From the NCBI RefSeq assembly GCF_023703795.1, contig NZ_CP098518.1, positions 1,984,001-2,048,000 of the forward strand: a stretch of 64,000 nt of DNA, written 5' to 3'. This DNA is from Haloplanus sp. HW8-1. Lineage in GTDB: Archaea; Halobacteriota; Halobacteria; Halobacteriales; Haloferacaceae. Made by a program: the position numbers and the translations under genes. Below, piece by piece: positions 1,609 through 18,768 of this stretch; positions within the stretch are counted from its first letter, which is position 1, and each line of letters opens with the position of its first letter. The notes beneath the pieces were generated by a model. It did not search any database and had not been told where the DNA came from. It saw only the letters and a list, made by a program, of their open reading frames with translations.

Positions 1609-2862
1609 ATGGTACGAACGCGGATGGTCGTCGGTATCGTGTTGTTACTGTCGCTGCTCGTCGCCTCTCCGGCCACGTCCGCGGTCGCTCAGGATTTCGG
1701 GGTCGACGGCCCGGCCGGGACGGTCGTCGCACAGGACGCGGGCGAAGGGGGCGAGGAAGGCGAAGCGGGTGACGGGGAAGAAGGCGGAATCGAGGGTGCC
1801 ATCGAAGGCTTCATCGAGGCGCAGGGAACCATCGGCGCGGTGATCGTCCTTCTCGGCGGTATCCTCCTCCTGACGGCGTGTACGGAGAAACTCATCAGCT
1901 ACCTCGCCCGTGCGTCGCTCAACATGAAGATGTCGCTGTTCGCACTCGCGATCGTCTTCACCGGCTTCGAGTTCGACGACACGATCCTCGCCTTGGTCCT
2001 GTCGAGTGGCGGACTAGAGCAGGCAGCGCTCGGGACGGCACTCGGCACTGGCCTGGCGATCATCGGTATCACGCTCGCGGTGGCCGCAATCATCAAACCG
2101 TTCCCGGTCGACTTGCCGACGGACTACATCGTCATCTTCGGACTCGCGCCGCTCATCCTCGTCCCGTTCGTCCTGCTCGGGACGCTGACGTTCGTCCACG
2201 GTGTCATCCTGACCGCCTTCTTCGTGTTCTCGTTCGCGTACTTCATCGTCCGCGAACGGCAGCGCGACATCCCGGTCTTCCGAAACACCGAACTCGGACA
2301 GGAACTCGAGGATCTGCGAACCGACGGTGGGATGGCACGCCCCAACTCGGTCGAAGAGATCCCCGAAGACCATCTCCTCGGTGACCTCGCCAACTCCGGC
2401 ATCGTCTGGATCGGCCTCTCCCTCCTCGCGCTCGCGGGTATCGTCTTCGCTGCAATGTTGCTCGAAGGCGGGTCCGAAGTCGTGATCGAAGGGTTCGGCA
2501 TCGAGGAGACCGTCTTCGGGGCGACGTTCCTCACACTGGTCCTCACGTTCGAGGACATCATGCTCACCATCGAACCGGTCCGCCGTGGCTTCCCCGAGAT
2601 CGGCGTCGGCAACGTCATCGGAAGCGTGCTGTTCTCCGTGACCGGCAACATCGGCGTCATCATGTTCCTCAGCGAGGTGGACATCTCGTCGTCCGTGCTC
2701 ACGTTCCACCTCCCGGCCATGATCATCGTGACCGTGCTGGCGGCCTACTTCTTCTACGAGGGGGCGATGAAGCGCTGGCACGGCGCCTTGCTCGGCGGTC
2801 TCTACGTCGCCTACTGGATCGTCGCGCTCGTCGTGTTCAGCGGCGTGCCGATCGGGGAGTGA
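1609..2862 (+). CDS. Atypical sodium/calcium exchanger (CaCA)-type membrane protein
   Basis: Integral membrane antiporter-like protein, 417 residues. It begins with a cleavable-looking signal (VVGIVLLLSLLVASPATSAVAQ), then a Gly/Glu-rich stretch (about residues 43-65) and roughly ten membrane segments in two halves. The second half contains FGATFLTLVLTFEDIMLTIE and IGVGNVIGSVLFS, which resemble the alpha-2 repeat of CaCA exchangers, but the usual SLPE core is replaced by TFED. The first half (TGFEFDDTILALVLSSGG) is the corresponding alpha-1 repeat. It ends one base from the stop of a related exchanger on the other strand, so the pair is convergent. The transported ion is uncertain because the conserved acidic motif differs. 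Confidence 0.8.
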   Translation: MVRTRMVVGIVLLLSLLVASPATSAVAQDFGVDGPAGTVVAQDAGEGGEEGEAGDGEEGGIEGAIEGFIEAQGTIGAVIVLLGGILLLTACTEKLISYLARASLNMKMSLFALAIVFTGFEFDDTILALVLSSGGLEQAALGTALGTGLAIIGITLAVAAIIKPFPVDLPTDYIVIFGLAPLILVPFVLLGTLTFVHGVILTAFFVFSFAYFIVRERQRDIPVFRNTELGQELEDLRTDGGMARPNSVEEIPEDHLLGDLANSGIVWIGLSLLALAGIVFAAMLLEGGSEVVIEGFGIEETVFGATFLTLVLTFEDIMLTIEPVRRGFPEIGVGNVIGSVLFSVTGNIGVIMFLSEVDISSSVLTFHLPAMIIVTVLAAYFFYEGAMKRWHGALLGGLYVAYWIVALVVFSGVPIGE

Positions 2863-2863
2863 G

Positions 2864-3940
2864 TCAGACCGCGTAGTTCGCCACCCAGTACGCGGCGTAG
2901 GCGGCAAGCAAGAGCGCGCCTGTCGGGCGTCCCACCTTCCCGCGGTAGAAGGCGATGGCGACGATCAGTAGCGTGCCGAAAAAGAACGGCCAGTGGACGG
3001 TGACGACGGTTCCGGCCGTGTTCAGGGGCCGGACCATCGCGATCAGACCCGCGTTGGCGCTGACGAAAAAGAGCATGCTCCCCACGACGTTGCCGACGCC
3101 GATGTGGGGACGCCCCTGCCGGACGGGTTCGACCGTCAGAAACAGTTCTTCGAGCGACGCGATGAAGCTCATCACCGTCGCGCCGAAGGCGAGTCCGGTC
3201 ACGCCGAGGAGTGTCAGCAGTTCTTTGGCCCCCTCGACGGCGAGTTCGGAGCCGACCGTCATGCCCACCGCAGCGACGAGGGCGACGCCGAGAAACGCCG
3301 GTCCCTCGTATCGTTCGGGGACGTGGTCCTCCACGAGTCCGTCGACGTCGAGGTCCGGATCCACGTCCAGACCGAACCACGTCCCGTCCTCGTCCTCCCC
3401 TCGCTCGTCACTGTTTTCGGCCGTGGCCTCGCGTTCCTCCTCCATGATCTCGACGTCCTCGGCCGAGAGGTAACGGGTGTCCGTGTAGCGTTCGAGCGTG
3501 TAGATGATGCCGAGGTACGGGACGAACGTCGCGGTCAGGACGGCGCCGTCGAACCGCGAGAGCGTGCCGTCGAGGGCCAGACCGAAGAAGAGAAACGGGG
3601 CGAGCAGCGTGATGCCGAGGTAGTTGCGAGGGACGTCCGTCTCGAAGGGGACCAACACGCCGGCGAGGCCGACGGCCGCCCCGAGGATGAAGAGCGCCTC
3701 GCCGAAGACGGTGCCGAGCGCCAAGTCGGGCAACCTGTCGTACGCCGCCGCGATGCCGAGAATGACGTTCTCGAGGTCCGTCCCCGCGAGAACGACAGTC
3801 AGGAAGAACCCGGAAACGCCGAGCGCGAGTGCCCCCTCGGCGACGGCCTCGATGAACGTCTCGACGCTGACGATGACGATGACGACCCCGACCAGAAACA
3901 GCGCGACCGACACCAACTCGCCCGGCAGTCCGAGTACCAT
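2864..3940 (-). CDS. Atypical sodium/calcium exchanger (CaCA)-type membrane protein
   Basis: Integral membrane antiporter-like protein of 358 residues with about ten predicted segments and a central acidic cytoplasmic loop (roughly residues 165-210, rich in Glu/Asp). The alpha-1-like repeat reads GFFLTVVLAGTDLENVILG, and the alpha-2-like repeat reads MSFIASLEELFLTVEP then GVGNVVGSMLFF. It is clearly related to the convergent gene at 1609, sharing the T(V/I)EPVR and (H/E)IGVGNV(V/I)GS signatures, but it has no signal peptide. The start at 3940 (MVLGLPGELVSVALF) places a hydrophobic segment right at the N-terminus, and the upstream in-frame extension is Arg-rich and unlikely to be translated. 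Substrate unknown; Na+/Ca2+ or another cation. Confidence 0.8.
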   Translation of the reverse strand: MVLGLPGELVSVALFLVGVVIVIVSVETFIEAVAEGALALGVSGFFLTVVLAGTDLENVILGIAAAYDRLPDLALGTVFGEALFILGAAVGLAGVLVPFETDVPRNYLGITLLAPFLFFGLALDGTLSRFDGAVLTATFVPYLGIIYTLERYTDTRYLSAEDVEIMEEEREATAENSDERGEDEDGTWFGLDVDPDLDVDGLVEDHVPERYEGPAFLGVALVAAVGMTVGSELAVEGAKELLTLLGVTGLAFGATVMSFIASLEELFLTVEPVRQGRPHIGVGNVVGSMLFFVSANAGLIAMVRPLNTAGTVVTVHWPFFFGTLLIVAIAFYRGKVGRPTGALLLAAYAAYWVANYAV

Positions 3941-4197
3941 GCGACGGGGAGGTACGCCCACCACCACATAAAGTCCTCGCCGACCCCCTCGTGGAGTGTG
4001 GGTCGTTCTCGCGACGTCCCACACGCGAGCCCCGACGGCCGCCGTGGTCGGGGCCGCGCGTCGCCGCCGTCGGTGACCCGGTCCCAAACGGTAAAGTCGA
4101 TCCGCCTCCGGAGAGTGGACATGAACGGGTACGTCGGCGCCGTGTGGCGGTCGACCGCCGTCCACACGGCCACGACTCCGCGAGTCGAGGTGGTGGG

Positions 4198-4845
4198 ATG
4201 AGCCTCATCGCGGTCGTCGAAATCGGTCATCCGGATCTGGCGCTCACGCCCACCATCCGCTCGACCGACGCGTCGGTGGAGGTGGTGTCTCACACTGCGA
4301 CCGATCCCGAGACGGGGATGTTCTTCTTTCTCGTCGAATCGGACTCCTTTCCAACGTTCGAGGCGGCCCTCGAACGCGACCATACGGTCGAGGAATCGAT
4401 GCTGGTCGCCGAGGCGTCGTCGACGCGTATCTACCGACTCCGTCACTCCCCCGGGACGAAACTCGTCTCCCCGACCACGATCGAGATGGGGGGACTCATG
4501 CTCGAAGCCGAGAGCACTGATACCGGCTGGTCGATTCGGACGCAACTTCCCGACCGCGAGACGCTCGGTAGGCTCTGGGAATACTGCGACGGTGAGGGAA
4601 TCGACTTCGAGATCGATCACATCTACAGCCTCGACGAGTTCTCGGTCGACGACGGCGTCGGACTCACCGACGCCCAGCGTGATGCCCTGCTGACTGCCTA
4701 CGAGGCGGGGTACTTCGAGGAACCCCGTGGTACCTCGCTACAGGAACTGGCCGACGACCTCGGCATCTCGCCGACCGCCGTCGGCGGTCGCATCCGTCGG
4801 GGGACGTCCCGACTCATCGAGCGGACGCTCGTCGAGGACGAGTGA
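4198..4845 (+). CDS. Bacterio-opsin-activator-like HTH-10 transcriptional regulator
   Basis: Haloarchaeal regulator of 215 residues with the family layout: an N-terminal ligand or sensor region (about residues 1-150) and a C-terminal HTH_10 module. The signature LTDAQRDALLTAYEAGYFEEPR, then LQELADDLGISPTAVGGRIR and a basic end (RRGTSRLIERTL), is diagnostic for Bat-type regulators. The start codon ATG at 4198 is preceded by GTGGG, and the in-frame upstream extension has non-coding composition. It is followed after 76 bases by a HalOD1 protein on the same strand, so the two may be co-transcribed. The target genes cannot be read from sequence. Confidence 0.85.
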   Translation: MSLIAVVEIGHPDLALTPTIRSTDASVEVVSHTATDPETGMFFFLVESDSFPTFEAALERDHTVEESMLVAEASSTRIYRLRHSPGTKLVSPTTIEMGGLMLEAESTDTGWSIRTQLPDRETLGRLWEYCDGEGIDFEIDHIYSLDEFSVDDGVGLTDAQRDALLTAYEAGYFEEPRGTSLQELADDLGISPTAVGGRIRRGTSRLIERTLVEDE

Positions 4846-4921
4846 GGCGCCACAGGGATAAACGCCACAGATGAGACACCCGCAGAGTCAACCCGCCGCT
4901 CGAACATCTTCGATCAGGAGC

Positions 4922-5209
4922 ATGGCTATCACGGAACTCGACGCGATCCACCACGTCCACCACGACGCGGACGGCGACGAGCGACTGAGCGCCACCCTCG
5001 TCGACGCCGTCGCTTCCCTCGCCGACACCGATCCCGCCGATCTGCCGCCGCTCGAAACGCGGATCAACGTGGCCGCGCTCGATGGTCTCTGGGACACCGA
5101 CTCCCCGGAGCCACCCGCATCCGGTTGCCTCACGTTCACTTACGCCGGGTACGTCGTCGTTGTCCGGAGCACCGGCACCGTGTTTCTCCGGGAGCGGGAT
5201 GGGGACTAA
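4922..5209 (+). CDS. HalOD1 output-domain protein
   Basis: Cytoplasmic protein of 95 residues made almost wholly of a HalOD1 domain, the haloarchaeal output module usually found alone or after a receiver domain. Visible family traits are the ETRINVAALDGLWD stretch in the middle and the ending LTFTYAGYVVVVRSTGTVFLRE, a beta pair with conserved Gly. The ATG at 4922 (MAITELDAIHHVH) is chosen because the upstream extension is short and unrelated. It sits 76 bases after the Bat-like regulator and could serve as its partner. A second HalOD1 copy, fused to a receiver, is at 59778. No catalytic residues are known for this domain. Confidence 0.8.
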   Translation: MAITELDAIHHVHHDADGDERLSATLVDAVASLADTDPADLPPLETRINVAALDGLWDTDSPEPPASGCLTFTYAGYVVVVRSTGTVFLRERDGD

Positions 5210-5373
5210 CCGGCGACAGCGACATCCCTATCTCGCGCCGTCGACCGATAGCCGATCCCCCGAACGGCTTCACACCGCCTGTCGAGGTCCGTCTTCGAAA
5301 ACCGGGAGAGCCTCGATTCGCCCACCGTCCGAGCACCAACGACGGACGCGTCCGCATCGACCCATGCGGTTCG

Positions 5374-6231
5374 TCAGTCCTCGAGTCGGCCACGCCGCCA
5401 CGCCTCGGTATCGGCCGCCTGGTTGAACGTGTAGATGTGGAGCCCCCGGATGTCGTACTCGGGGTCGGCGGCGTAGGGGGCCAATCCGTCGACGATCGCA
5501 TCGGGCGTGTACTTCCCGCGCGAGCCGACGAGTTGGCGAACGAACCCCACGATGCCGCTCGTCTTCCGCAGGAAGCGCACGGAGTCGCCGACGCCGACTT
5601 TCTGAGAGATGTTCAACAAGCGCTGGTACTTCATCACGCCCGGAATCCCCACCTCGACCGGAAGGTCGATTTCCCGGTCGCGCACCGTCTCGATCCAGCG
5701 GCGGATAGCCTCGGGATCGTAACAGAGCTGTGTCGTGAGATACGTGGCGTGGGGAGCTTTCCGCTCCATCGCCTCGGCCAGCGTCCGGTCGTCGAGGAAG
5801 TCGTGGCCCTCGGGGTAGCCGGTGATGCCCACCTCGTCGAAGGCGTAGCCGAGGTCTTCGAGCGCAACGAGGAGGTCGTGGGCCGACTCGAACTCGCCGA
5901 CGGGGTCTTCGCGGTCGCCACCGGGAACGAAGACGTCGGTGACGCCGGCGTCATCGAGGCGGCCGGCAACCTCGTCGAGATGGTCGTCGTCGCGCACGTA
6001 CCGGGCGGCGACGTGAGGGATCGGCTCGTACCCCCGGGCGGCCGCCTTCTCGGACCACTCAACCGTCGCGTCGAGGCCGAGTTGGGGCGAGGCCGTGATC
6101 GCGATCTCGGCACCCTCCGGGAGCCGTTCCATCTGCCCCTCGACGCTGTCGAAGGGCATGAGCTCGAACCGGGGATCGGTGAGCAGTCTCGATGCACCGT
6201 CGGCGGTATCGGTCGATGTGGTGAGGGACAT
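5374..6231 (-). CDS. Methylenetetrahydrofolate reductase-like protein
   Basis: TIM-barrel protein of 285 residues related to MetF, which reduces 5,10-methylene-THF to 5-methyl-THF. Supporting stretches are AITASPQLGLDATVEWSEKA, YEPIPHVAARYV, FVPGGDRED and VGITGYPEGH, which follow the barrel strands of the family, plus YLTTQLCYDPEAI, matching the T/Q-x-F/Y-D element. The N-terminal Glu of canonical MetF (E-x-x-P) appears replaced (ITASPQ), so the reaction may differ from housekeeping MetF. It lies 60 bases after the DmdA-like gene on the same strand and is probably in its operon. That context suggests it processes methyl- or methylene-THF produced by demethylation. Confidence 0.83.
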   Translation of the reverse strand: MSLTTSTDTADGASRLLTDPRFELMPFDSVEGQMERLPEGAEIAITASPQLGLDATVEWSEKAAARGYEPIPHVAARYVRDDDHLDEVAGRLDDAGVTDVFVPGGDREDPVGEFESAHDLLVALEDLGYAFDEVGITGYPEGHDFLDDRTLAEAMERKAPHATYLTTQLCYDPEAIRRWIETVRDREIDLPVEVGIPGVMKYQRLLNISQKVGVGDSVRFLRKTSGIVGFVRQLVGSRGKYTPDAIVDGLAPYAADPEYDIRGLHIYTFNQAADTEAWRRGRLED

Positions 6232-6291
6232 GTCGAATCGGTTCGGCGTCGTCGTCGGTTAGGCCGGGTGATGGTTAGGGCTGTCGGGGGA

Positions 6292-7677
6292 CTACTCCTC
6301 GGCGTCCTGCCGGGCGTTCAGTTTTGCCTGCTCCCTGGCGCTGGGGTTCACGGACTCCTTGAACGGCACCTCGGCGACCGTCGCGTACGCGGGTTCGCCC
6401 GCCTCCTCGGCGTACTCGTCTGGCAGGTGAACCGCGAACTCCAAGTCGAGGTTCTCCTCGTAGATCTCGTCGTTGAGGAGGGCGTCGGTCTCGGCCTGTA
6501 GCTTCTCCGCGGGGACGAAGCCCAGCCCGATGTTCGTCTCCAGATCGGGGTTCCACCACGGCGAGGTCATGTATCCACACTCCGTGCCGGTGTCCGGATC
6601 CGAGACGATCCAGAAGTCGGGGGCGTAGTCGCGGATCGGTTCGCCCGCGATCTTCAGGCCGACCATCTTGAGGTTGAACGGGTACTCCCCGTTCTCGACG
6701 AGTCGTTGCTGGCGTTCGAGTTCCGCCTTGCCGATGTAATCACCGTCCTTGTCGTTGGGGACCTGATAGCCGAGGTTGACCTGGAACGGCGAGGTCTCGT
6801 GGTCCATATCCTGTCCCCACGAGAGGATGCCCGCTGCGATACGGCGGTGGTGTCCGGGCGCGATCTGGCGGCCGCCGTGGTCCTTGACCGACTCCATCAC
6901 CGGGTCCCAGACCCGTTCGGCGTTTTCGCTCGCGTCCTTGACGTAGACCTCGAAGCCCTTCTCACCGGAGAAGCCCGTCTGACTCACCAACACCGGGCAG
7001 CCGTTGATCTCGGCGTCCATCAGCCCGTAGTAGGGGATGTCGCTGACCGCCTCGCCGACGACGTCGACCATCACGTCCTCGGACAGAGGCCCCTGAATCT
7101 GCATCGGCGCCACGTCGATCTCGTCGATCTCCACGTCGAAGTCCATGCCGACGTTGACGCCCTGAAGCCACTGCATGAGCGTCGAATCCGAGATGGAAAA
7201 CCAGAACTCGTCCTCGGCGACCCGCAGGAGGACCGGATCGTTCAGGATGCCGCCGTCCTCGTTACAGAGGATGACGTACTTGCCGGACATCGGGTCGATC
7301 TCCGTGGCATCCCGGGTGATGACGTAGTCCGTCAGCGCCTCGGCGTCCGGCCCCTTCACCCGGATCTGGCGCTCGACCGCCACGTCCCACAGCGTCACGC
7401 TCTCTGTAAGCGCCTCGTACTCCTTCATCGCGCCGCCGTCTTCGGGTTCGACCAGACCCCGCGGGTGGTAGATCCGGTTGTAGACCGTACAGCGCCACGC
7501 TCCCTCCTCGTTGAAGGACTTGTGGAAGAAGGGCGACTTCCGAACGCGGGTCGAGACGAGCATCTCGATGCCCGGGTCGCCGGTCTGTCGCAGGTTCCGT
7601 GGAAGGACACGGTCGGACTGGTCGATTTCCGGATGGTTCGGGTGGCCGTCGGGCGCGGTGGAGTCATCGTTTGTCAT
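6292..7677 (-). CDS. DmdA-like tetrahydrofolate-dependent demethylase (GcvT fold)
   Basis: Aminomethyltransferase-family protein of 461 residues, predicted to move a methyl group from a substrate to tetrahydrofolate. The N-terminus (STRVRKSPF..., WRCTVYNRIYHPRG) and the core features (VERQIRVKGPDAEAL, GGILNDPVLLRVAEDEFWF, AGILSWGQDMDHETSPFQVN) follow the DMSP demethylase DmdA pattern more closely than GcvT itself. There is a longer C-terminal tail (about residues 400-461) than in bacterial DmdA. The ATG at 7677 was chosen over the TTG two codons upstream. It leads an operon with the MTHFR-like gene and is divergent from sarcosine oxidase. From context the substrate could be DMSP, glycine betaine or another methylated osmolyte; this is inference. 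Confidence 0.85.
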   Translation of the reverse strand: MTNDDSTAPDGHPNHPEIDQSDRVLPRNLRQTGDPGIEMLVSTRVRKSPFFHKSFNEEGAWRCTVYNRIYHPRGLVEPEDGGAMKEYEALTESVTLWDVAVERQIRVKGPDAEALTDYVITRDATEIDPMSGKYVILCNEDGGILNDPVLLRVAEDEFWFSISDSTLMQWLQGVNVGMDFDVEIDEIDVAPMQIQGPLSEDVMVDVVGEAVSDIPYYGLMDAEINGCPVLVSQTGFSGEKGFEVYVKDASENAERVWDPVMESVKDHGGRQIAPGHHRRIAAGILSWGQDMDHETSPFQVNLGYQVPNDKDGDYIGKAELERQQRLVENGEYPFNLKMVGLKIAGEPIRDYAPDFWIVSDPDTGTECGYMTSPWWNPDLETNIGLGFVPAEKLQAETDALLNDEIYEENLDLEFAVHLPDEYAEEAGEPAYATVAEVPFKESVNPSAREQAKLNARQDAEE

Positions 7678-7774
7678 CGACAATTAACGCCGATCCCCAC
7701 CCGGATAAGGTTGGACCACAGCTATCTCGGATGTATAAGTACCCTCGACCGATCGCGGCCGGGGCCGGCGAGAA

Positions 7775-7800
7775 AATTAACACGTATAGTGTTGTTAATT
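7775..7800. promoter_or_regulatory. Imperfect palindrome in the divergent dmdA-like/sarcosine oxidase promoter
   Basis: The 191-base divergent intergenic region holds an A+T-rich imperfect inverted repeat with arms AATTAACA and TGTTAATT around a short centre, followed by a run of eight G. It lies about 70 bases before the sarcosine oxidase ATG and about 100 before the dmdA-like ATG. Its symmetry and position suit an operator for a dimeric regulator of both operons. No regulator gene lies adjacent, so this is an inference. A CTTATCC box at about 7708-7714 may be the TATA element of the leftward operon. Confidence 0.4.
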
Positions 7801-7868
7801 GGGGGGGGTCGCCGACCGACGGGTGACGGGACCCAAGGGTCAATACCCTCCCCTCCGAACCCCTGCGT

Positions 7869-9014
7869 ATGCGTTCGAGCGACGAGCGCCGCGACGTCAT
7901 CGTCGTCGGCGTCGGCGGCATGGGTAGTGCAACCGCGTACCACCTCGCCGAACGAGGGGTTGACGTACTGGGACTGGAGCGGTTCGACATCCCCCACACC
8001 GAGGGATCATCCCACGGGATCACCCGTATCATCCGGAGAGCGTACTACGAGCATCCCTCGTACATCCCGCTGATCGAACGGGCGTACGAACTCTGGGACG
8101 ACCTGGCCGAGGAGACGGGGCGACCGGTCATCCACCGTACCGGGTCCATCGACGCGGCCCCCCAGGGGCACGACGTCTTCGAGGGGTCGCGACGCTCCTG
8201 TGAGGAACACGACATTCCACACGAGGTGTTGACGGGGGCTGAACTGAACGAGCGGTTCCCGGGCTACGACCTCCCCGCGGAGTATCGCGCCGTCTATCAG
8301 GAGGACGGCGGGTTCGTCGTCCCCGAGCAGTCGATCGTCGGCCACGTCGAGGCCGCACAGGCCGCTGGCGCCGAGATCCGTGCTCGGGAAGGCGTCTACG
8401 ACTGGGCCCCGACGCCGGACGGCGGCGTCCGCGTCTGGACGGACAGGGACACGTACGAGGCCGACCGGCTCGTCCTCGCCGCCGGCGCCTGGAACTACAA
8501 ACTCGCCGACGCCCTCTCCGGGCTGGCCGTCCCCGAACGACAGGTGCTCGCGTGGTTCCAACCCGAGACGCCCGAACTGTTCGACCCCGATCACCTCCCG
8601 GTGTGGAACATCGAGGTCCCCGAGGGGCGCTTCTACGGCCTGCCGATCTACGACGTGCCGGGATTCAAACTGGGGAAATACCACCACCTCGACGAGTCGG
8701 TCGATCCGGACGACTACGACACCGACCCCGGACCCGCCGACGAGGTGCTCCTCCGTGACTTCACGGAGAAGTACTTCCCGCAGGCCGCCGGGCCGACGAT
8801 GCGCCTCGCGACCTGCATGTTCACGAACTCCCCCGACGAGCACTTCATCCTCGATACGCTCCCCGACCATCCGCAGGTGACCGTCGGCGCGGGCTTCTCG
8901 GGGCACGGCTTCAAGTTCGCGACCGTCATCGGCGAAATCCTCGCGGATCTGGCCGCCGACGGCGACACCGACCACCCCACCGAGATGTTCCGACTCGACC
9001 GGTTCGAATCATAA
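7869..9014 (+). CDS. Monomeric sarcosine oxidase-type FAD oxidoreductase
   Basis: Flavoprotein of 381 residues that oxidatively demethylates N-methyl amino acids such as sarcosine to glycine. The Rossmann motif GVGGMGSATAYHL is at residues 14-26. SSHGITRIIRRAYYEHPSY matches the MSOX/SolA active-site segment. TCMFTNSPDEHF carries Cys316, equivalent to the cysteine that links covalently to FAD in MSOX, and GAGFSGHGFKF near the C-terminus is also conserved. The length equals the family norm. It is 56 bases before the dimethylglycine oxidase-like gene on the same strand, consistent with sequential removal of methyl groups. N-methyltryptophan oxidase is a close alternative, but the neighbours favour sarcosine. 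Confidence 0.88.
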   Translation: MRSSDERRDVIVVGVGGMGSATAYHLAERGVDVLGLERFDIPHTEGSSHGITRIIRRAYYEHPSYIPLIERAYELWDDLAEETGRPVIHRTGSIDAAPQGHDVFEGSRRSCEEHDIPHEVLTGAELNERFPGYDLPAEYRAVYQEDGGFVVPEQSIVGHVEAAQAAGAEIRAREGVYDWAPTPDGGVRVWTDRDTYEADRLVLAAGAWNYKLADALSGLAVPERQVLAWFQPETPELFDPDHLPVWNIEVPEGRFYGLPIYDVPGFKLGKYHHLDESVDPDDYDTDPGPADEVLLRDFTEKYFPQAAGPTMRLATCMFTNSPDEHFILDTLPDHPQVTVGAGFSGHGFKFATVIGEILADLAADGDTDHPTEMFRLDRFES

Positions 9015-9070
9015 AGGCCGCAGGTGAGGCACCCGGAACCTTTTGACGGGTTCGGTGACACGTATGTGTC

Positions 9071-11626
9071 ATGAGCGCGGACACCACACTCCCGGAGTCG
9101 GCACGAACGGTCGTCATCGGCGCCGGGGCAGTCGGCTGTAGCGTCGCGTACCACCTCTCCGAACTCGGTGCCGAGGACGTGGTCGCGGTCGATCAGGGGC
9201 CCCTGCCGGTCACCGGCGGATCGTCGACCCACGCCCCCGGCATCATGTTCCAGACGTCGCCGTCGAAGCTCATGACGAAGACCGCTCACTACACCAGTCG
9301 ACTGCTCGACGACGCGGGCGTCTACGACGAGGTCGGCGGCATCGAAGTCGCCCGATCCGAGGAGCGTATGGACTTCCTCCAGCGGCGGGTCGAACATGCC
9401 ACCGCCTACGGGCTTCCCGATCCGCAGTTGTTGACCCCCGCGGAGGTCACCGACCACCTCCCGCTGGTGAACGAGGACGCCATCCTCGGCGGGTACTACT
9501 CGCCGACCGACGGCCGCGTCGACGGGGTCGCCGCCCTCCAGTGGTACATCGAGGAGTCGGACGCCGACTTCTACGGCCACACGTCGGTGACCGACCTCGA
9601 CGTGGCCGGCGGCGAGGTGACCGCCGTCGAGACGGACCGGGGCCGCATCGAGTGTGACCGCTGTGTGATCGCCACCAACAACTGGGGCTACCGGACCGGC
9701 CAACTCGCCGGTGTCGACCTCCCCATCGCCCCCGTCGAACACCAGTACGTAGTCACGGACCCGCTCGACGAACTGGCGGGTGCGGACCCTGCGACCCGCG
9801 TCGACACCGGCGGCCTGGAGGTACCCGGCGACCACCGTATCGCCGACGCCATGGGTCGGGCGCCACATCGCCCGGTCGGCCGCGATCAGGACCACTCGCT
9901 GTACTTCCGCACCCACGGCGACAGCCTCGGCCTCGGGTCGTACAACCACGAGTCGCTCAGCGTCGACCCCGACGCGATGGGGACGAACACCGAGACGCGG
10001 CAGGCCTCGGTCCACGACTTCACCGACGAACACTGGGAGCGGGCGACCCATCCCGACCGCGACGTCTCGCCGAAACGGGCGTTCGAGGAACTCCTCCCCG
10101 TCACCGAGGACGCGTCGTTCGAAGCCACAGAGAACGGTATCTTCGTGTTCACTCCCGACGGCATGCCGGTCCTCGGCGAGACGGCGGCCGTCGACGGACT
10201 GTGGACTGCCCTCGCCATCTGGTGGACGCACTCCGGGGGGTACGGGAAGATTCTCGCGGAGTGGATGGAGACGGGCGTGCCGAAACTCCCCGACGGCCCG
10301 GTCGACACCGGCGCCATCCACGTCAACCGGTTCGAACCCCACGCCGGCAGCAAGGACTACTTCGTCGACCGCGGCGCGACGCGGTACCGACAGGTGTACA
10401 GCATCGTCGAACCCAACTGGCAGCACGACGACCACCGTGGCCTCCGCCGGAGCCCATTCTACCGCCAGCAGGCGGACCTCGGCGCCGAGTTCGTCCAGAG
10501 CGGCGGGTGGGAGTCGGCTCAGTGGTACGACGCCAACGCCGACTTGGTCGACCGCTACGCGGACCGCATCCCCGAACAGGCGGGCTGGCGGGGGATCAAC
10601 CGCTCGCCGATCGAGGGCGCCGAACATCTTCACACCCGAGAGCACGTCTCCATGTTCGACATGACGTCGTTCAGTTCGATCATGGTCGAGGGGGGCCGGG
10701 CCGGCGCCTTCCTCCAGCGAGTCTGCAGCAACGACGTCGACATCGACGTTGGCACGGTGCGGTACTCGCTGCTCCTGAACGAGGGTGGCAACGTTCTGGC
10801 GGACGTCACCGTCGTCCGCCTCGACGAGGACGAGTACATGGTCACCACCGGCGGCGGCAACTCGCCGGGCATCCACGGGTCCTGGCTGCAAGCCCACGCC
10901 CCGGAGACCGTCTCGGTCACCGTCGAAGAGGGCGCCCGCTCTACTATCGGGCTCTGGGGGCCGAAATCGCGGCTCCTCCTCCAGCGCGTCACCGAGGCCG
11001 ACGTCTCCGACGATGGCTTTCCCTACTTCTCGGCCAAGCGCCTGTACGTCGGCGAGGTGCCCGTAATCGCGCTACGGGTGTCCTACGTCGGCGAACTCGG
11101 CTGGGAGTTGTGGGCGCCGGCCGAGTACGGCGCACGCCTCTGGGAGACGCTGTGGGAGGCGGGCCAGGACCTCGACGTGCGCCCGATGGGTGGCGGCGCA
11201 CTGGAGTCGATGCGTCTGGAGAAGGGCTACCGGCTCTGGGGGACGGACATCGACACCGACACCAACCCCTTCGCCGCAGGCCTCCCGTTCGCCGTCGACA
11301 TGGACACGGAGTTCGTCGGGCGGGCGGCGCTGGCGGAGATCCGCGGGTCGGGTCCCGACAGCCGTATCGTCCCGCTCACGCTCGACGACTCGACGGACCG
11401 CCTGCTGAGCGGCCGCCCCGTCACGAAGGGCGGCGAGACGCTCGGCTACGTCCAGGCCGGTGACTACGGCTACAGTGTCGGCGCGTCCATCGGCTACACG
11501 TACGTACCGAGCGAGTACGCGGACCCCGGCACCGCCGTCCAGGTCACCTGCGAGGGCGAGACGTACGACGCCACCGTCCGCGAGGAACCCCTGTTCGATC
11601 CGGGTCGGGAGAAGATCCTGCGATAG
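9071..11626 (+). CDS. Dimethylglycine oxidase/dehydrogenase-type FAD-GcvT fusion
   Basis: Two-domain enzyme of 851 residues. Residues 1-430 form a DAO-type FAD domain with GAGAVG at 17-22, and the STHAPG segment has His54 at the place where FAD is attached covalently in dimethylglycine dehydrogenases. The rest is an aminomethyltransferase pair (GcvT plus GcvT C-terminal barrel, e.g. GHYRLWGTD-like YRLWGTDIDTD). The family oxidises dimethylglycine or sarcosine and passes the formaldehyde-level carbon to THF in the second domain. It follows sarcosine oxidase by 56 bases and precedes a BCCT transporter. Whether the substrate is dimethylglycine or sarcosine is not certain. Confidence 0.87.
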   Translation: MSADTTLPESARTVVIGAGAVGCSVAYHLSELGAEDVVAVDQGPLPVTGGSSTHAPGIMFQTSPSKLMTKTAHYTSRLLDDAGVYDEVGGIEVARSEERMDFLQRRVEHATAYGLPDPQLLTPAEVTDHLPLVNEDAILGGYYSPTDGRVDGVAALQWYIEESDADFYGHTSVTDLDVAGGEVTAVETDRGRIECDRCVIATNNWGYRTGQLAGVDLPIAPVEHQYVVTDPLDELAGADPATRVDTGGLEVPGDHRIADAMGRAPHRPVGRDQDHSLYFRTHGDSLGLGSYNHESLSVDPDAMGTNTETRQASVHDFTDEHWERATHPDRDVSPKRAFEELLPVTEDASFEATENGIFVFTPDGMPVLGETAAVDGLWTALAIWWTHSGGYGKILAEWMETGVPKLPDGPVDTGAIHVNRFEPHAGSKDYFVDRGATRYRQVYSIVEPNWQHDDHRGLRRSPFYRQQADLGAEFVQSGGWESAQWYDANADLVDRYADRIPEQAGWRGINRSPIEGAEHLHTREHVSMFDMTSFSSIMVEGGRAGAFLQRVCSNDVDIDVGTVRYSLLLNEGGNVLADVTVVRLDEDEYMVTTGGGNSPGIHGSWLQAHAPETVSVTVEEGARSTIGLWGPKSRLLLQRVTEADVSDDGFPYFSAKRLYVGEVPVIALRVSYVGELGWELWAPAEYGARLWETLWEAGQDLDVRPMGGGALESMRLEKGYRLWGTDIDTDTNPFAAGLPFAVDMDTEFVGRAALAEIRGSGPDSRIVPLTLDDSTDRLLSGRPVTKGGETLGYVQAGDYGYSVGASIGYTYVPSEYADPGTAVQVTCEGETYDATVREEPLFDPGREKILR

Positions 11627-11694
11627 CGGGCGCTCGGCCGGGCAACACGGGGCGCTGGATCCGCCCGGTCCCTGAACACGGGCCGATTATTCAA

Positions 11695-11915
11695 AAAAAT
11701 ACCAAGATTTATTTGACATAACGAGTAGGTGTCTATGTGGCTCCCTGTCATGGTGGCGGCTACCTATGCCCACGAAGTTCGTGGGGCCGCTCGTGACGGG
11801 GGATGGCGGTCGACTGGGACGGCGTACCGCACGACAACCGACGGTTCAGACACGAACGGACGACCCATGAGCAATTCACCACAGACGACCGGCACCCGCC
11901 GGACGGAGGAACGGT
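11695..11915 (+). promoter_or_regulatory. Promoter and leader of the first BCCT transporter
   Basis: The 289 bases after the dimethylglycine oxidase stop contain an A+T-rich segment at about 11695-11722 (CAAGATTTATTTGAC), the only TATA-like sequence in the gap. A GGAGG lies 8 bases before the ATG at 11916. Between them is a leader of about 190 bases with an 18-codon frame (11868-11923) that overlaps the transporter start in another frame. A translated leader peptide is possible but unproven. Confidence 0.35.
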
Positions 11916-13667
11916 ATGGCTGACGCAGACGAAACTACCGGGTCGATGTCCGATGGACTCCAGGTGGAACTGTTCCACCCGGAATCGGACCGCGAACCCG
12001 GAGACACCAACATCCAGGCGCTCGGCTTCGACATCCACCCGGTCGTGTTCCCGGTCGCACTGGTCATCATCGCCCTCTTCATCGCCGTCACGGTGATCCT
12101 CGGTGACCAGGCTGCGTCGGCGTACACGGCCCTGTTCAACTTCATCGGCGAGAACTTCGGCTGGTTCTACCTACTGGCGGTGAACGTCTTCATCGTCGTC
12201 TTGCTGTTTTTCGCGTTCAGCAGGTACGGCAAGATCAAGATCGGCGGCGTCGAAGCGGAAAAGGAGTTCAGCGACTTCTCGTGGATGGCGATGCTGTTCA
12301 GCGCCGGCATGGGGATCGGTCTCATGTTCTTCAGCGTCTCCGAACCGCTGTACTACTTCCAGAACGTCCCCGGCTTCTTCGGCGCCGAGGCCGAGACCGG
12401 TGCGGCGGCCTCGGCGGCGATGGCCCAGACGTTCTTCCACTGGGGCTTTCACCCGTGGGCCGTCTACGGCCTCGTCGGTCTCGGCCTCGCCTTCTTTTCG
12501 TTCAACCGCGGCCTGCCGCTCACCTTCCGGTCGATCTTCTGGCCCCTGCTCGGCGAGCGCATCTACGGCTGGCCGGGCCACCTGATCGACCTCGTCACCG
12601 TGTTCGCGACCCTGTTCGGCCTCGCGACGTCGCTCGGCCTCGGGGTGGCCCAGGTCAACACCGGCCTCTCCTACGTCGGCGGCGACCTCCTCGGACTCGT
12701 CTCGGTGCCGACCAACCCGCTGGTTCAGGTGCTCCTGATCGCGGGCATCACCGGCATCGCGACCCTCTCGGTCGCCGCGGGCCTCGACGGCGGCGTCAAG
12801 CGTCTGAGCACGATCAACCTCTATCTGATGTTCGCGCTGCTCGGGTTCCTGCTGCTCGTGGGCCCGACGGTGTTCATCCTCGGCTCCTGGGTCGAGGGGC
12901 TCGGCGCCTACTTCAACAACATCCTCGCGCTCGGGTTCTTCCGTGGCACGCTCGCCCCCGGCGGCGGGACGGTCACCGCGTGGACCGTCTTCTACTGGGG
13001 CTGGTGGATCGCCTGGTCGCCCTTCGTCGGCATGTTCATCGCCCGCATCTCGAAGGGCCGCACCGTCCGGGAGTTCGTCCTCGGGGTGCTGGTGTTGCCG
13101 GCGATGTTCTCGACCATCTGGCTCTCGACGTTCGGCGGGAGCGCGCTCTACAACTCGATCGCGGGTAACGGTGCGGCGCTCGCCACCTACAACGAGGTCG
13201 GTCAGACGGTCGCCATGTTCGCCATGCTCGAACAGTTCCCGCTCGGTGCGATCTCGGGCATCCTCGCGACCCTGCTGGTGATCACCTTCTTCGTCACCTC
13301 CTCGGACTCCGGGTCGCTGGTCATCGACCACCTGACCTCGGGCGGCAAGCACGACGTGCCGAAGGTCCAGCGCATCTTCTGGGCGATCACCGAGGGACTC
13401 GTCGCCGCCATCCTGCTGTACGGCGGCGGCCTGACCGCCCTGCAGACGGCGGCCATCACGACCGGTCTGCCCTTCGCGGTCATCCTCTGTCTGATGTGTT
13501 ACACCGTCTACCTCGGGCTCAGGAACGAGTACGAGATCCTCGAATCCGAGGAGTTCGCCGAGACCATCGAGGAACTCTCGGACCGCGAGGACGTCGACGT
13601 GGTCACCGCGGGCGACGAGATGGTGACCGACATCCGAGATGGTGACGACCCGGCGAGCAGCGACTGA
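11916..13667 (+). CDS. BCCT family betaine/choline/carnitine transporter
   Basis: Secondary carrier of 583 residues with about 12 membrane segments, which imports quaternary ammonium or sulfonium solutes with Na+ or H+. Family signatures are FGWFYLLAVNVFIVVLLFFA, FSAGMGIGLMFFSVSEPLYY and WTVFYWGWWIAWSPFVGMF, then ISKGRTVREF and a TSSDSGSLVID segment in the tenth helix region. The aromatic residues of the betaine-binding box are present. A hydrophilic N-terminal tail (about 35 residues) and an acidic C-terminal tail of about 50 residues could be osmosensing regions. It lies downstream of the demethylating oxidases, so it probably feeds them. A paralogue is at 16867. Confidence 0.92.
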   Translation: MADADETTGSMSDGLQVELFHPESDREPGDTNIQALGFDIHPVVFPVALVIIALFIAVTVILGDQAASAYTALFNFIGENFGWFYLLAVNVFIVVLLFFAFSRYGKIKIGGVEAEKEFSDFSWMAMLFSAGMGIGLMFFSVSEPLYYFQNVPGFFGAEAETGAAASAAMAQTFFHWGFHPWAVYGLVGLGLAFFSFNRGLPLTFRSIFWPLLGERIYGWPGHLIDLVTVFATLFGLATSLGLGVAQVNTGLSYVGGDLLGLVSVPTNPLVQVLLIAGITGIATLSVAAGLDGGVKRLSTINLYLMFALLGFLLLVGPTVFILGSWVEGLGAYFNNILALGFFRGTLAPGGGTVTAWTVFYWGWWIAWSPFVGMFIARISKGRTVREFVLGVLVLPAMFSTIWLSTFGGSALYNSIAGNGAALATYNEVGQTVAMFAMLEQFPLGAISGILATLLVITFFVTSSDSGSLVIDHLTSGGKHDVPKVQRIFWAITEGLVAAILLYGGGLTALQTAAITTGLPFAVILCLMCYTVYLGLRNEYEILESEEFAETIEELSDREDVDVVTAGDEMVTDIRDGDDPASSD

Positions 13668-16866: not shown

Positions 16867-18768
16867 ATGGTTGGGGCCGTCGACGGATGTGATATGGCGA
16901 CACATGGCGCGACCGGCGTCGAGCGCCTCGTTCGTGCGGCGTTGCTGCCCGTGTGTGCGGCCTCGGGAATGGTCGTCGTCTCCGGATTTTTCTTCCCGTG
17001 GATCGTCGGTTCCGTCGTGACCGGCCGAGGGTGGCTCGCCGTCGCGCTTCTCTTTTTCGGGTCCGGGTTGGCCTACCTCGCGCTCCTCCCCCTCGACGAC
17101 GTCGCGCCCGACGACGAGCGCCCCGGGGCTCCCTACCTCCTCCGGGTCCGGCACGTCCCCTGGCGACACTGGGCGAGCGGCTTTCTCGCCCGTCAGGACC
17201 CCGTCACGTTCGGCGTTCCGGTTCTCGTCCTCCTGGCTTTCTTCGTCACCCGACTCGCCGCTCCCGGAACGACGACCGCTGCCGTGGCTGCCGTCGACGG
17301 CATCCTCTTCGACGACGCCGCTCCACTCTTTCTCGGTGCGATGTTTCTGGCGGTCCTGTACTGTCTTTTCTTACTCGTGGGGCCGTGGGGGGCGATCAAA
17401 CTCGGCGGCCCCGACGCGGAGCCGACCTACACCTATCCGACGTACTTCGCGATGGTTTTCACCGCCGGCATCGCCGCGGGCATCGTCTTCTGGGGCCCGG
17501 CCGAGTCACTCTTCCATTACGGCTCGCCGCCACCCGCGGCCGACGTCGCCCCTCGGTCCGCCGCCGCCGTCGTCGTCGCGGTGAGCTACGCCCTCTTTCA
17601 CTGGGGACTCTCGGCTTGGAGTGCCTACCTCGTCGTCGGCCTGCCCATCGCCTACTTCACTTACCGGCACGGCGCCCCGCTTCGCGTGTCGACCATCCTG
17701 ACGCCCTTCCTCGGGGTGGACGGCCTCGACGGAACCGTGGCGAAACTCGTCGACGTGCTCGCCATCTTCGCCACCATCGGCGGCGTCGCCACCTCCGTGG
17801 CCATCGTCGGCCGGCAGTTCCTGGCCGGCGTGGCGTTCCAGTGGGGCGTCGGCTTCGGCGGCGTCGGCGCCTTGCTGTTCGTCGCCGGCCTCGTCGTCAT
17901 CTACAGCATCTCCGCCGAGAGCGGCGTCCAGCGGGGGATCCGGCGCATCGCCGGCGTCAACATCCTCCTCTTTGCCCTCTTTTCGGCCCTCCTGTTCGCC
18001 GTCGGTCCGCGGGGGTTCGTCCTCGACTCCGGGGTGGCCGCGCTCGGCCGCTACGCGACCCGGTTCGTCCCGATGAGCCTCCAGTACGGCGGCGACTGGG
18101 CCGCAGAGTGGACGGTCTGGAACTGGTCGTGGTGGTTCTCCTGGGCGCCCTTCGCCGGCCTCTTTCTCGCGGCACTCTCGAAGGGCCGCCGGGTACGGAC
18201 CGTCGTGTTCACCGGCGTCGTCGCCACGTCGGCGGCCTCCGTCTGCTGGCACCTCCTCCTCGGTGGTACCGCCCTCTCGCTTCAGCACTCGGGGCGGGCG
18301 GACGCCCTCGCCGCCGTCGACGCCGGTGGCGGCTCCGAGGCCGTCGCGGGCTTTCCCGTCTTCGCGGCCCTGCCGCTCAGCCGACTCCTGATGTTCCTGT
18401 TTCTCGCGCTCATCGTCGTCTTCATCGTCACGTCGGCCGATACGTCGACGCTCGTCGTGTCGATCCTGGCGACCGAGCGGGGGCACGCTCCCACCACCGG
18501 AAGCATCGTCTTCTGGGGGGTGCTTCAGGGCGTCGTTGCCGTCGCCGTGTTGCTCGTCGGCGGCGGCGAGTCGTTACAGACCGCGGCAGTCGCGACCGGC
18601 GGCCCCTTCGCCGTCCTCTCGCTCGTGTCGCTTCTGGGGCTGACCCGGACCTTTCGCCGCCACGAACGGGGCCACCCGACGCTTCTGGACCGCGCGGCCG
18701 TCGTCCTCGCGGACACGCCGCTCGGTCGGCTCCTGTCGCCCGGGAGCGACGATCAACGGGAGCGGTAG
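16867..18768 (+). CDS. BCCT family transporter (second copy)
   Basis: Carrier of 633 residues, about 12 membrane segments. Family marks: GPWGAIKLGGPDAEPTYTY, FTAGIAAGIVFWGPAESLFH, the signature EWTVWNWSWWFSWAPFAGLF, LSKGRRVRTV and VTSADTSTLVVSI. It is only distantly similar to the first BCCT protein, with a longer N-terminal region holding two extra hydrophobic stretches (about residues 20-75). ATG 16867 lies 21 bases after a TATA-like box; a later ATG at 16894 is possible. The last 16 bases overlap the end of a small gene on the other strand. Divergence from a K+ channel suggests a role in osmotic balance, but the substrate is not determined. Confidence 0.88.
   Translation: MVGAVDGCDMATHGATGVERLVRAALLPVCAASGMVVVSGFFFPWIVGSVVTGRGWLAVALLFFGSGLAYLALLPLDDVAPDDERPGAPYLLRVRHVPWRHWASGFLARQDPVTFGVPVLVLLAFFVTRLAAPGTTTAAVAAVDGILFDDAAPLFLGAMFLAVLYCLFLLVGPWGAIKLGGPDAEPTYTYPTYFAMVFTAGIAAGIVFWGPAESLFHYGSPPPAADVAPRSAAAVVVAVSYALFHWGLSAWSAYLVVGLPIAYFTYRHGAPLRVSTILTPFLGVDGLDGTVAKLVDVLAIFATIGGVATSVAIVGRQFLAGVAFQWGVGFGGVGALLFVAGLVVIYSISAESGVQRGIRRIAGVNILLFALFSALLFAVGPRGFVLDSGVAALGRYATRFVPMSLQYGGDWAAEWTVWNWSWWFSWAPFAGLFLAALSKGRRVRTVVFTGVVATSAASVCWHLLLGGTALSLQHSGRADALAAVDAGGGSEAVAGFPVFAALPLSRLLMFLFLALIVVFIVTSADTSTLVVSILATERGHAPTTGSIVFWGVLQGVVAVAVLLVGGGESLQTAAVATGGPFAVLSLVSLLGLTRTFRRHERGHPTLLDRAAVVLADTPLGRLLSPGSDDQRER

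Follow-up and report, generated by a model that had tools for sequence, protein, structure and literature searches.

A candidate folate-linked locus for glycine betaine demethylation in haloarchaea, with a proposed oxygen-independent first step

Glycine betaine is a widespread osmolyte of salty habitats, and its first demethylation is known to proceed via the oxygenase GbcAB, betaine-homocysteine methyltransferase (BHMT) or cobalamin systems (MtgB). In acetogens, MtgB-type systems pass the betaine methyl group to tetrahydrofolate (THF) by way of a corrinoid, so that methyl transfer from betaine to THF is feasible as a first step. We describe here a divergent locus (4198-13667) in a 64,000-nucleotide stretch (G000:C1:1984001-2048000; hereafter the window) of the 3.84 Mb genome of the haloarchaeon Haloplanus sp. 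HW8-1. It is built around a THF methyltransferase resembling the dimethylsulfoniopropionate (DMSP) demethylase DmdA, termed DMDL, and a protein resembling methylenetetrahydrofolate reductase (MTHFR). The locus is real and conserved, and its genes fit together coherently as a pathway. We put at roughly 70% the probability that it forms, as its gene families and their distribution suggest, a folate-linked catabolic unit for glycine betaine with an oxygen-free first step. With somewhat less assurance, we also favour the more specific proposal that a GcvT-fold betaine:THF methyltransferase, dispensing with oxygen and cobalamin and coupled to an MTHFR running in reverse, has displaced an oxygenase in place in haloarchaea.

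In 2011, genes resembling dimethylglycine oxidase (DMGO) were found near BCCT transporters in four haloarchaea; the authors suggested that betaine is used but named no first step (PMC3102087). In the same year, a SAR11 aminomethyltransferase encoded near betaine transport and monomeric sarcosine oxidase genes was postulated to act on betaine (PMC3160333). A 2020 study of DmdA evolution, in its available part, mentions Halobacteriales and a 'non-DmdA' clade and assigns no substrate (PMC7487153). The wider idea of an aminomethyltransferase working on betaine is that of the 2011 SAR11 study; no report of the haloarchaeal DMDL-MTHFR pair, of its exchange with an oxygenase or of the enzyme activity was found in the open-access literature.

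The proposed route would begin with import of glycine betaine by a BCCT transporter. DMDL would then transfer a methyl group from betaine to N5 of THF, giving dimethylglycine and 5-methyl-THF without oxygen or cobalamin, and the MTHFR-like flavoprotein, acting in reverse, would oxidise 5-methyl-THF to 5,10-methylene-THF. A DMGO fusion protein would convert dimethylglycine to sarcosine, again with formation of 5,10-methylene-THF, and sarcosine oxidase would convert sarcosine to glycine and formaldehyde. FolD and formate-THF ligase would oxidise the one-carbon (C1) units, yielding NAD(P)H and ATP, while glycine would pass onward to serine and pyruvate. DMDL-MTHFR would thus have taken the place of a GbcA-like Rieske oxygenase, the first-step enzyme of relatives. 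We infer every one of these reactions, its direction, and betaine as the substrate of DMDL from the genes themselves. Oxygen independence is claimed for the first step only, because the two downstream oxidases may still need oxygen. The locus comprises:

4198-4845, plus strand: HTH_10/BAT-type transcriptional regulator, probably controlling the locus (a longer frame from 4045 matches Pfam HTH_10 and BAT)
5374-6231, minus strand: MTHFR-like protein, 285 amino acids (Pfam MTHFR, 41.7 bits; cut-off 24)
6292-7677 (frame to 7683), minus strand: DMDL, DmdA-like THF methyltransferase, proposed glycine betaine:THF methyltransferase (GCV_T, 147.7 bits)
7869-9014, plus strand: monomeric sarcosine oxidase (MSOX)-type flavoprotein, putatively sarcosine to glycine and formaldehyde (best PDB match MSOX, E 2e-88)
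9071-11626, plus strand: DMGO-type fusion of FAD oxidase and folate domain (DAO, FAO_M, GCV_T and GCV_T_C)
11916-13667, plus strand: BCCT-family transporter, probable betaine uptake (Pfam BCCT, 603 bits)

An earlier note on this DNA had described the last five genes and their divergent layout; all five are intact open reading frames (ORFs) at the coordinates it gave. The DMDL frame opens at a TTG (7683), but translation more likely begins at the in-frame ATG two codons further on (7677). With the conserved HTH_10/BAT regulator, the functional unit extends slightly beyond these five genes. Indeed, an orthologue of this regulator flanks the locus in relatives, whether of the DMDL-MTHFR or of the GbcA-like oxygenase type. 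A palindrome upstream of DMDL (TTAACAACACTATACGTGTTAA) was considered as an operator and set aside, as a loose pattern gave no conserved counterpart at other loci.

The gene content and families are established from the sequence, as are the phylogeny (see below), the co-occurrence and the positional exchange. In a sample of 145 Halobacteria genomes at least 90% complete, 30 encode DMDL and 31 the MTHFR-like protein; both are present in 30 genomes, MTHFR only in one and neither in 114 (Fisher p = 3e-30). The conservation of DMDL and its pairing with the MTHFR-like protein are far beyond chance. A DMGO-type fusion is present in all 30 DMDL genomes. Among the 42 genomes with this fusion, 24 carry DMDL without a GbcA-like Rieske oxygenase, 11 the oxygenase without DMDL, six both and one neither, a negative association of DMDL with the oxygenase (Fisher p = 3e-5 by genome). 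None of the 11 oxygenase-only genomes encodes the MTHFR-like protein, as expected if MTHFR serves only the methyl-THF made by DMDL. The oxygenase occurs without the fusion in one genome, and the DMDL-MTHFR pair is carried by Haloarcula strains. The single MTHFR-only genome, that of Halostagnicola larsenii (G057), has the gene (L099:11995-12849, plus strand) in a different folate island that also encodes FolP, PabAB, FolD, formyl-THF deformylase and VOC-family proteins; this island perhaps serves another THF-dependent demethylation.

The two types of locus can be superimposed. Six oxygenase-type genomes (L120-L125) have the order HTH_10 / orf-GbcA, divergent from MSOX-DMGO; in L123 and L124, BCCT separates MSOX from DMGO. 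The window has HTH_10 / MTHFR-DMDL, divergent from MSOX-DMGO-BCCT, and MTHFR-DMDL occupies the exact interval of the oxygenase and its orf. In Haloplanus ruber (L127), where the cluster is adjoined by a GbcA-like Rieske oxygenase with likeness to carnitine monooxygenase and GbcA, both pairs stand in tandem (MSOX / DMDL-MTHFR-GbcA-orf / HTH_10). At the congener locus L128, a second DMGO paralogue occupies the sarcosine oxidase position. This exchange is the strongest evidence that DMDL and the oxygenase share one step, betaine to dimethylglycine. Co-occurrence, complementarity among the fusion genomes and shared locus position are most simply explained if DMDL-MTHFR is an in-place, oxygen-independent alternative to GbcA. 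The phylogenetic profile, the in-place exchange and the strict MTHFR pairing also support the earlier note, which had proposed that a module for demethylating betaine-type osmolytes could feed folate and that the DmdA-like enzyme could be its missing first step. A Cys-rich small ORF (~115 amino acids) lies next to the oxygenase in every oxygenase locus inspected (L060:11598-11945, plus strand; L120-L125; L129-L131). It has no NCBIfam match and may be a dedicated oxygenase partner.

Several observations weigh against betaine catabolism by this route. The exclusion of DMDL and oxygenase, so marked by genome, has p = 0.057 once collapsed to genera, so that shared descent contributes to it, and the six genomes with both show that it is not strict. 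Some DMDL genomes hold merely a distant (37-40%) DMGO-type fusion, the Haloquadratum loci L008 and L013 carry DMDL without nearby C1 genes, and growth of H. walsbyi is not enhanced by betaine (PMC3102087). The GbcA-like protein scores 139 bits against an NCBIfam GbcA cut-off of 670; thus we infer its betaine substrate as well. Of the enzyme types known for the first step, only the GbcA-like oxygenase was searched for in this genome, and none was found at E 1e-40.

On sequence grounds, DMDL is neither DmdA, nor GcvT, nor LigM. Its best NCBIfam model is DmdA (NF009133), at 243.5 bits against a curated cut-off of 410; scores also fall below the cut-offs for GcvT (TIGR00528, 129.7 versus 235.85 bits) and for LigM/DesA (NF047885 and NF047633, 36 and 47 bits versus 580 and 800). 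The first PDB match, by sequence as well as by predicted structure, is SAR11 DmdA (3tfh); the AlphaFold model of DMDL is of moderate confidence (pLDDT 67) and served only to rank folds. In a maximum-likelihood tree of 33 sequences, haloarchaeal DMDL forms one clade (100/100) outside the DmdA clade proper. Its sister group consists of DmdA and the DmdA-like proteins of bacteria, and a branch supported at 98/92 unites them all. The folate domain of DMGO, GcvT, Tdm and LigM fall outside this branch, the LigM rows on a long separate one. The phylogeny against DmdA, GcvT and LigM that the earlier note had called for thus places DMDL with DmdA and its bacterial kin, and not with GcvT, the grouping that the note had named as refuting its pathway. 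No gcv genes adjoin DMDL in the window, and a separate full-length GCV_T match (372 amino acids) is encoded elsewhere in the genome.

The N-terminal RxRxSPF motif and the motifs VxERQ and WxSIxD are common to DMDL and DmdA and not found in GcvT. The SKQGG(F/Y)E motif of the aligned DmdA rows reads SGEKGFE in DMDL, which is further set apart by a conserved N-terminal segment (residues 14-43) and by an extension at the C-terminus. DMDL is 75-92% conserved across haloarchaea (92% identity to the Haloplanus ruber protein) and, among 393 genomes drawn from the phylum, is confined to haloarchaea of the order to which the window belongs. A single-residue argument for DMSP versus betaine (W171; PMC7487153) was dropped: the matched position is W in SAR11 DmdA and Y in Roseobacter DmdA, and so does not discriminate substrates. 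Several haloarchaea encode a second DmdA-like paralogue, DMDL2 (66-70% identical; L025:9831-11177, L113:7983-9350, L135-L140), once in tandem with DMDL and usually alone or beside an HTH_10-type regulator; in L113 it lies near TusA/DsrE/YeeE sulfur genes. Standing alone with varied neighbours, DMDL2 was rejected as a clue to substrate.

The sister relationship to DmdA, the shared motifs and the top rank of DmdA among matches to the predicted structure would fit an archaeal DmdA outgroup that demethylates DMSP, alone or along with betaine, to methylmercaptopropionate and methyl-THF. This is unlikely in view of the low NF009133 score and the replaced SKQGG(F/Y)E motif. Moreover, no DmdB, DmdC or DmdD was seen in the window, the DMGO-type fusion found in every DMDL genome plays no part in the degradation of DMSP, and the enzyme that DMDL exchanges with is a GbcA-like oxygenase. 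The earlier note had offered betaine or DMSP as substrate; betaine is retained, while the missing DmdB/C/D and SKQGG speak against DMSP as its equal. GcvT-fold enzymes accept varied substrates, and DMDL might demethylate some other methylated amine or zwitterion (dimethylglycine, sarcosine, proline betaine, carnitine, choline), betaine entering via another enzyme. The Rieske enzyme of the exchange indeed has carnitine monooxygenase as its closest match in the PDB, and at 12 of 57 full-length loci DMDL has creatininase-family genes in its vicinity. We consider this improbable, given that this genome has no GbcA-like enzyme at E 1e-40 and that dimethylglycine and sarcosine oxidases are already present, which leaves betaine to dimethylglycine as the gap in the route.

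It has also to be asked whether the pair, as a supplier of methyl-THF and methylene-THF, mainly serves the biosynthesis of methionine and thymidylate and not catabolism. Folate-synthesis genes (folP, pabAB, DHFR) do neighbour it in several islands, but the many haloarchaea with neither gene argue that it meets no housekeeping need, and its partner genes are transporters and oxidases. A Mer homologue has been proposed as the biosynthetic MTHFR of haloarchaea (PMC8305020). The three Mer-like matches in this genome, all under the curated cut-off, could serve methionine synthesis, and a mainly biosynthetic role of DMDL-MTHFR appears very remote.

In the proposed betaine catabolism, the MTHFR-like protein probably oxidises 5-methyl-THF to 5,10-methylene-THF. 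Its closest solved structure is 7xg9 (117 bits; next match 41 bits), which we take to be the MTHFR of Sphingobium SYK-6. With 31% identity to 7xg9 and 20% to E. coli MetF, it is closer to the former type than to classical MetF. Its relatives in Bosea (45%) and Sphingobium (47%) are encoded beside LigM-type or GcvT-named genes, and comparable demethylase-MTHFR pairs occur at loci of Rhodococcus, Lichenihabitans, Bosea and Sphingobium. The SYK-6 enzyme is described as preferring methyl-THF oxidation and as having co-evolved with the LigM-type demethylase (2026 review, PMC13001107). In this genome the MTHFR-like protein is the sole PF02219 match. The earlier note had it lacking the usual E-x-x-P start and hence perhaps running a special reaction. 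In fact the motif is present (R21-F-E23-L-M-P26), and E23 and D106 align with E28 and D120 of E. coli MetF. The special reaction is better read as MTHFR in reverse, as known for the LigM-partner subfamily (PMC13001107).

The sarcosine oxidase-like protein aligns with MSOX over its full length. The Cys that links the flavin (in T-C-M-F-T) is conserved, and of the MSOX motif K-L-G-x-H both K and H are aligned. It scores below the cut-off of TIGR01377 (312 versus 480 bits) but above that of the N-methyltryptophan oxidase model NF008425 (493 versus 257), so that its substrate is not certain. The DMGO fusion matches N,N-dimethylglycine oxidase of A. globiformis (1pj5) over its full length (E 8e-168), with the FAD oxidase and folate domains fused. 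DMGO paralogues are present in several copies per island (L044, L058, L069, L042), in types ~78%, 50% and 38% identical to that of the window, which may split dimethylglycine and sarcosine oxidation between them. The BCCT transporter passes the general model TIGR00842 (482 bits; cut-off 407.55) and falls short of the betaine-specific NF047988 (530 bits; cut-off 650).

At the 57 full-length DMDL loci, the neighbours are MTHFR (47), HTH_10 (37), DMGO (25), BCCT (19), FolD (19), GlyA (18) and IlvA (15). Other haloarchaeal islands with the pair contain folD, glyA, ilvA (threonine/serine ammonia-lyase), fhs, folP, pabAB, DHFR and formate dehydrogenase genes. This genome encodes FolD and formate-THF ligase (Fhs) elsewhere than at the locus; with the C1 genes of the islands, this makes a route to CO2 or serine plausible. 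The creatininase-family genes (e.g. L095:19267-20004, minus strand) are a possible creatinine-to-sarcosine feed into the pathway. In the folate island of Halomicrococcus, a homologue of the MttB-family trimethylamine methyltransferases (L096:251-1705, plus strand) adjoins formate-THF ligase, which may mark a haloarchaeal route for quaternary amines that depends on cobalamin. A second, divergent BCCT transporter lies 3 kb past the locus (16867-18768, plus strand); relatives of this type stand in for the first BCCT in the oxygenase-type loci L120-L122, L125 and L131. On its other side, the locus is adjoined by two related multi-helix membrane proteins facing each other (1609-2862, plus strand; 2864-4165, minus strand), of sodium/calcium-exchanger type by eye.

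If the proposal is true, a direct folate route would add a further chemistry for betaine demethylation, one that captures reducing power and ATP from the methyl group and works in oxygen-poor settings such as brine. Proteins that bear the name 'aminomethyltransferase' or 'glycine cleavage T' in roughly one fifth of the sampled haloarchaeal genomes would also gain a function, and the presence of MTHFR in DMDL genomes and almost no others would be accounted for.

The pathway is most likely a variant of the DmdA/LigM kind of demethylation. DMDL shares with DmdA of SAR11 and Roseobacter the GcvT fold, a sister clade, the N-terminal and VxERQ motifs and, presumably, THF-dependent methyl transfer from an onium zwitterion. 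It differs in sequence (~31-36% identity, the two extensions, no SKQGG) and in its partners, which are not DmdBCD but MTHFR, DMGO and sarcosine oxidase. Like LigM/DesA with the catabolic MetF of Sphingobium SYK-6, it would combine a THF-dependent demethylase with a dedicated MTHFR that re-oxidises methyl-THF, and the MTHFR-like protein is closest to that group. However, DMDL lies outside the LigM clade, has other neighbours and is not expected to act on an aromatic ether. By description, SAR11_1303, near betaine transport and monomeric sarcosine oxidase genes and postulated for betaine metabolism, and the DmdA-like SAR11_1265, which adjoins metF, are similar (PMC3160333); both are bacterial. 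GbcA-type Rieske oxygenases have the same proposed step and locus position, but an unrelated fold, a need for oxygen and formaldehyde as a product. The dimethylglycine oxidase/monomeric sarcosine oxidase route of Arthrobacter employs identical downstream enzyme types and differs in its first step and transporter context.

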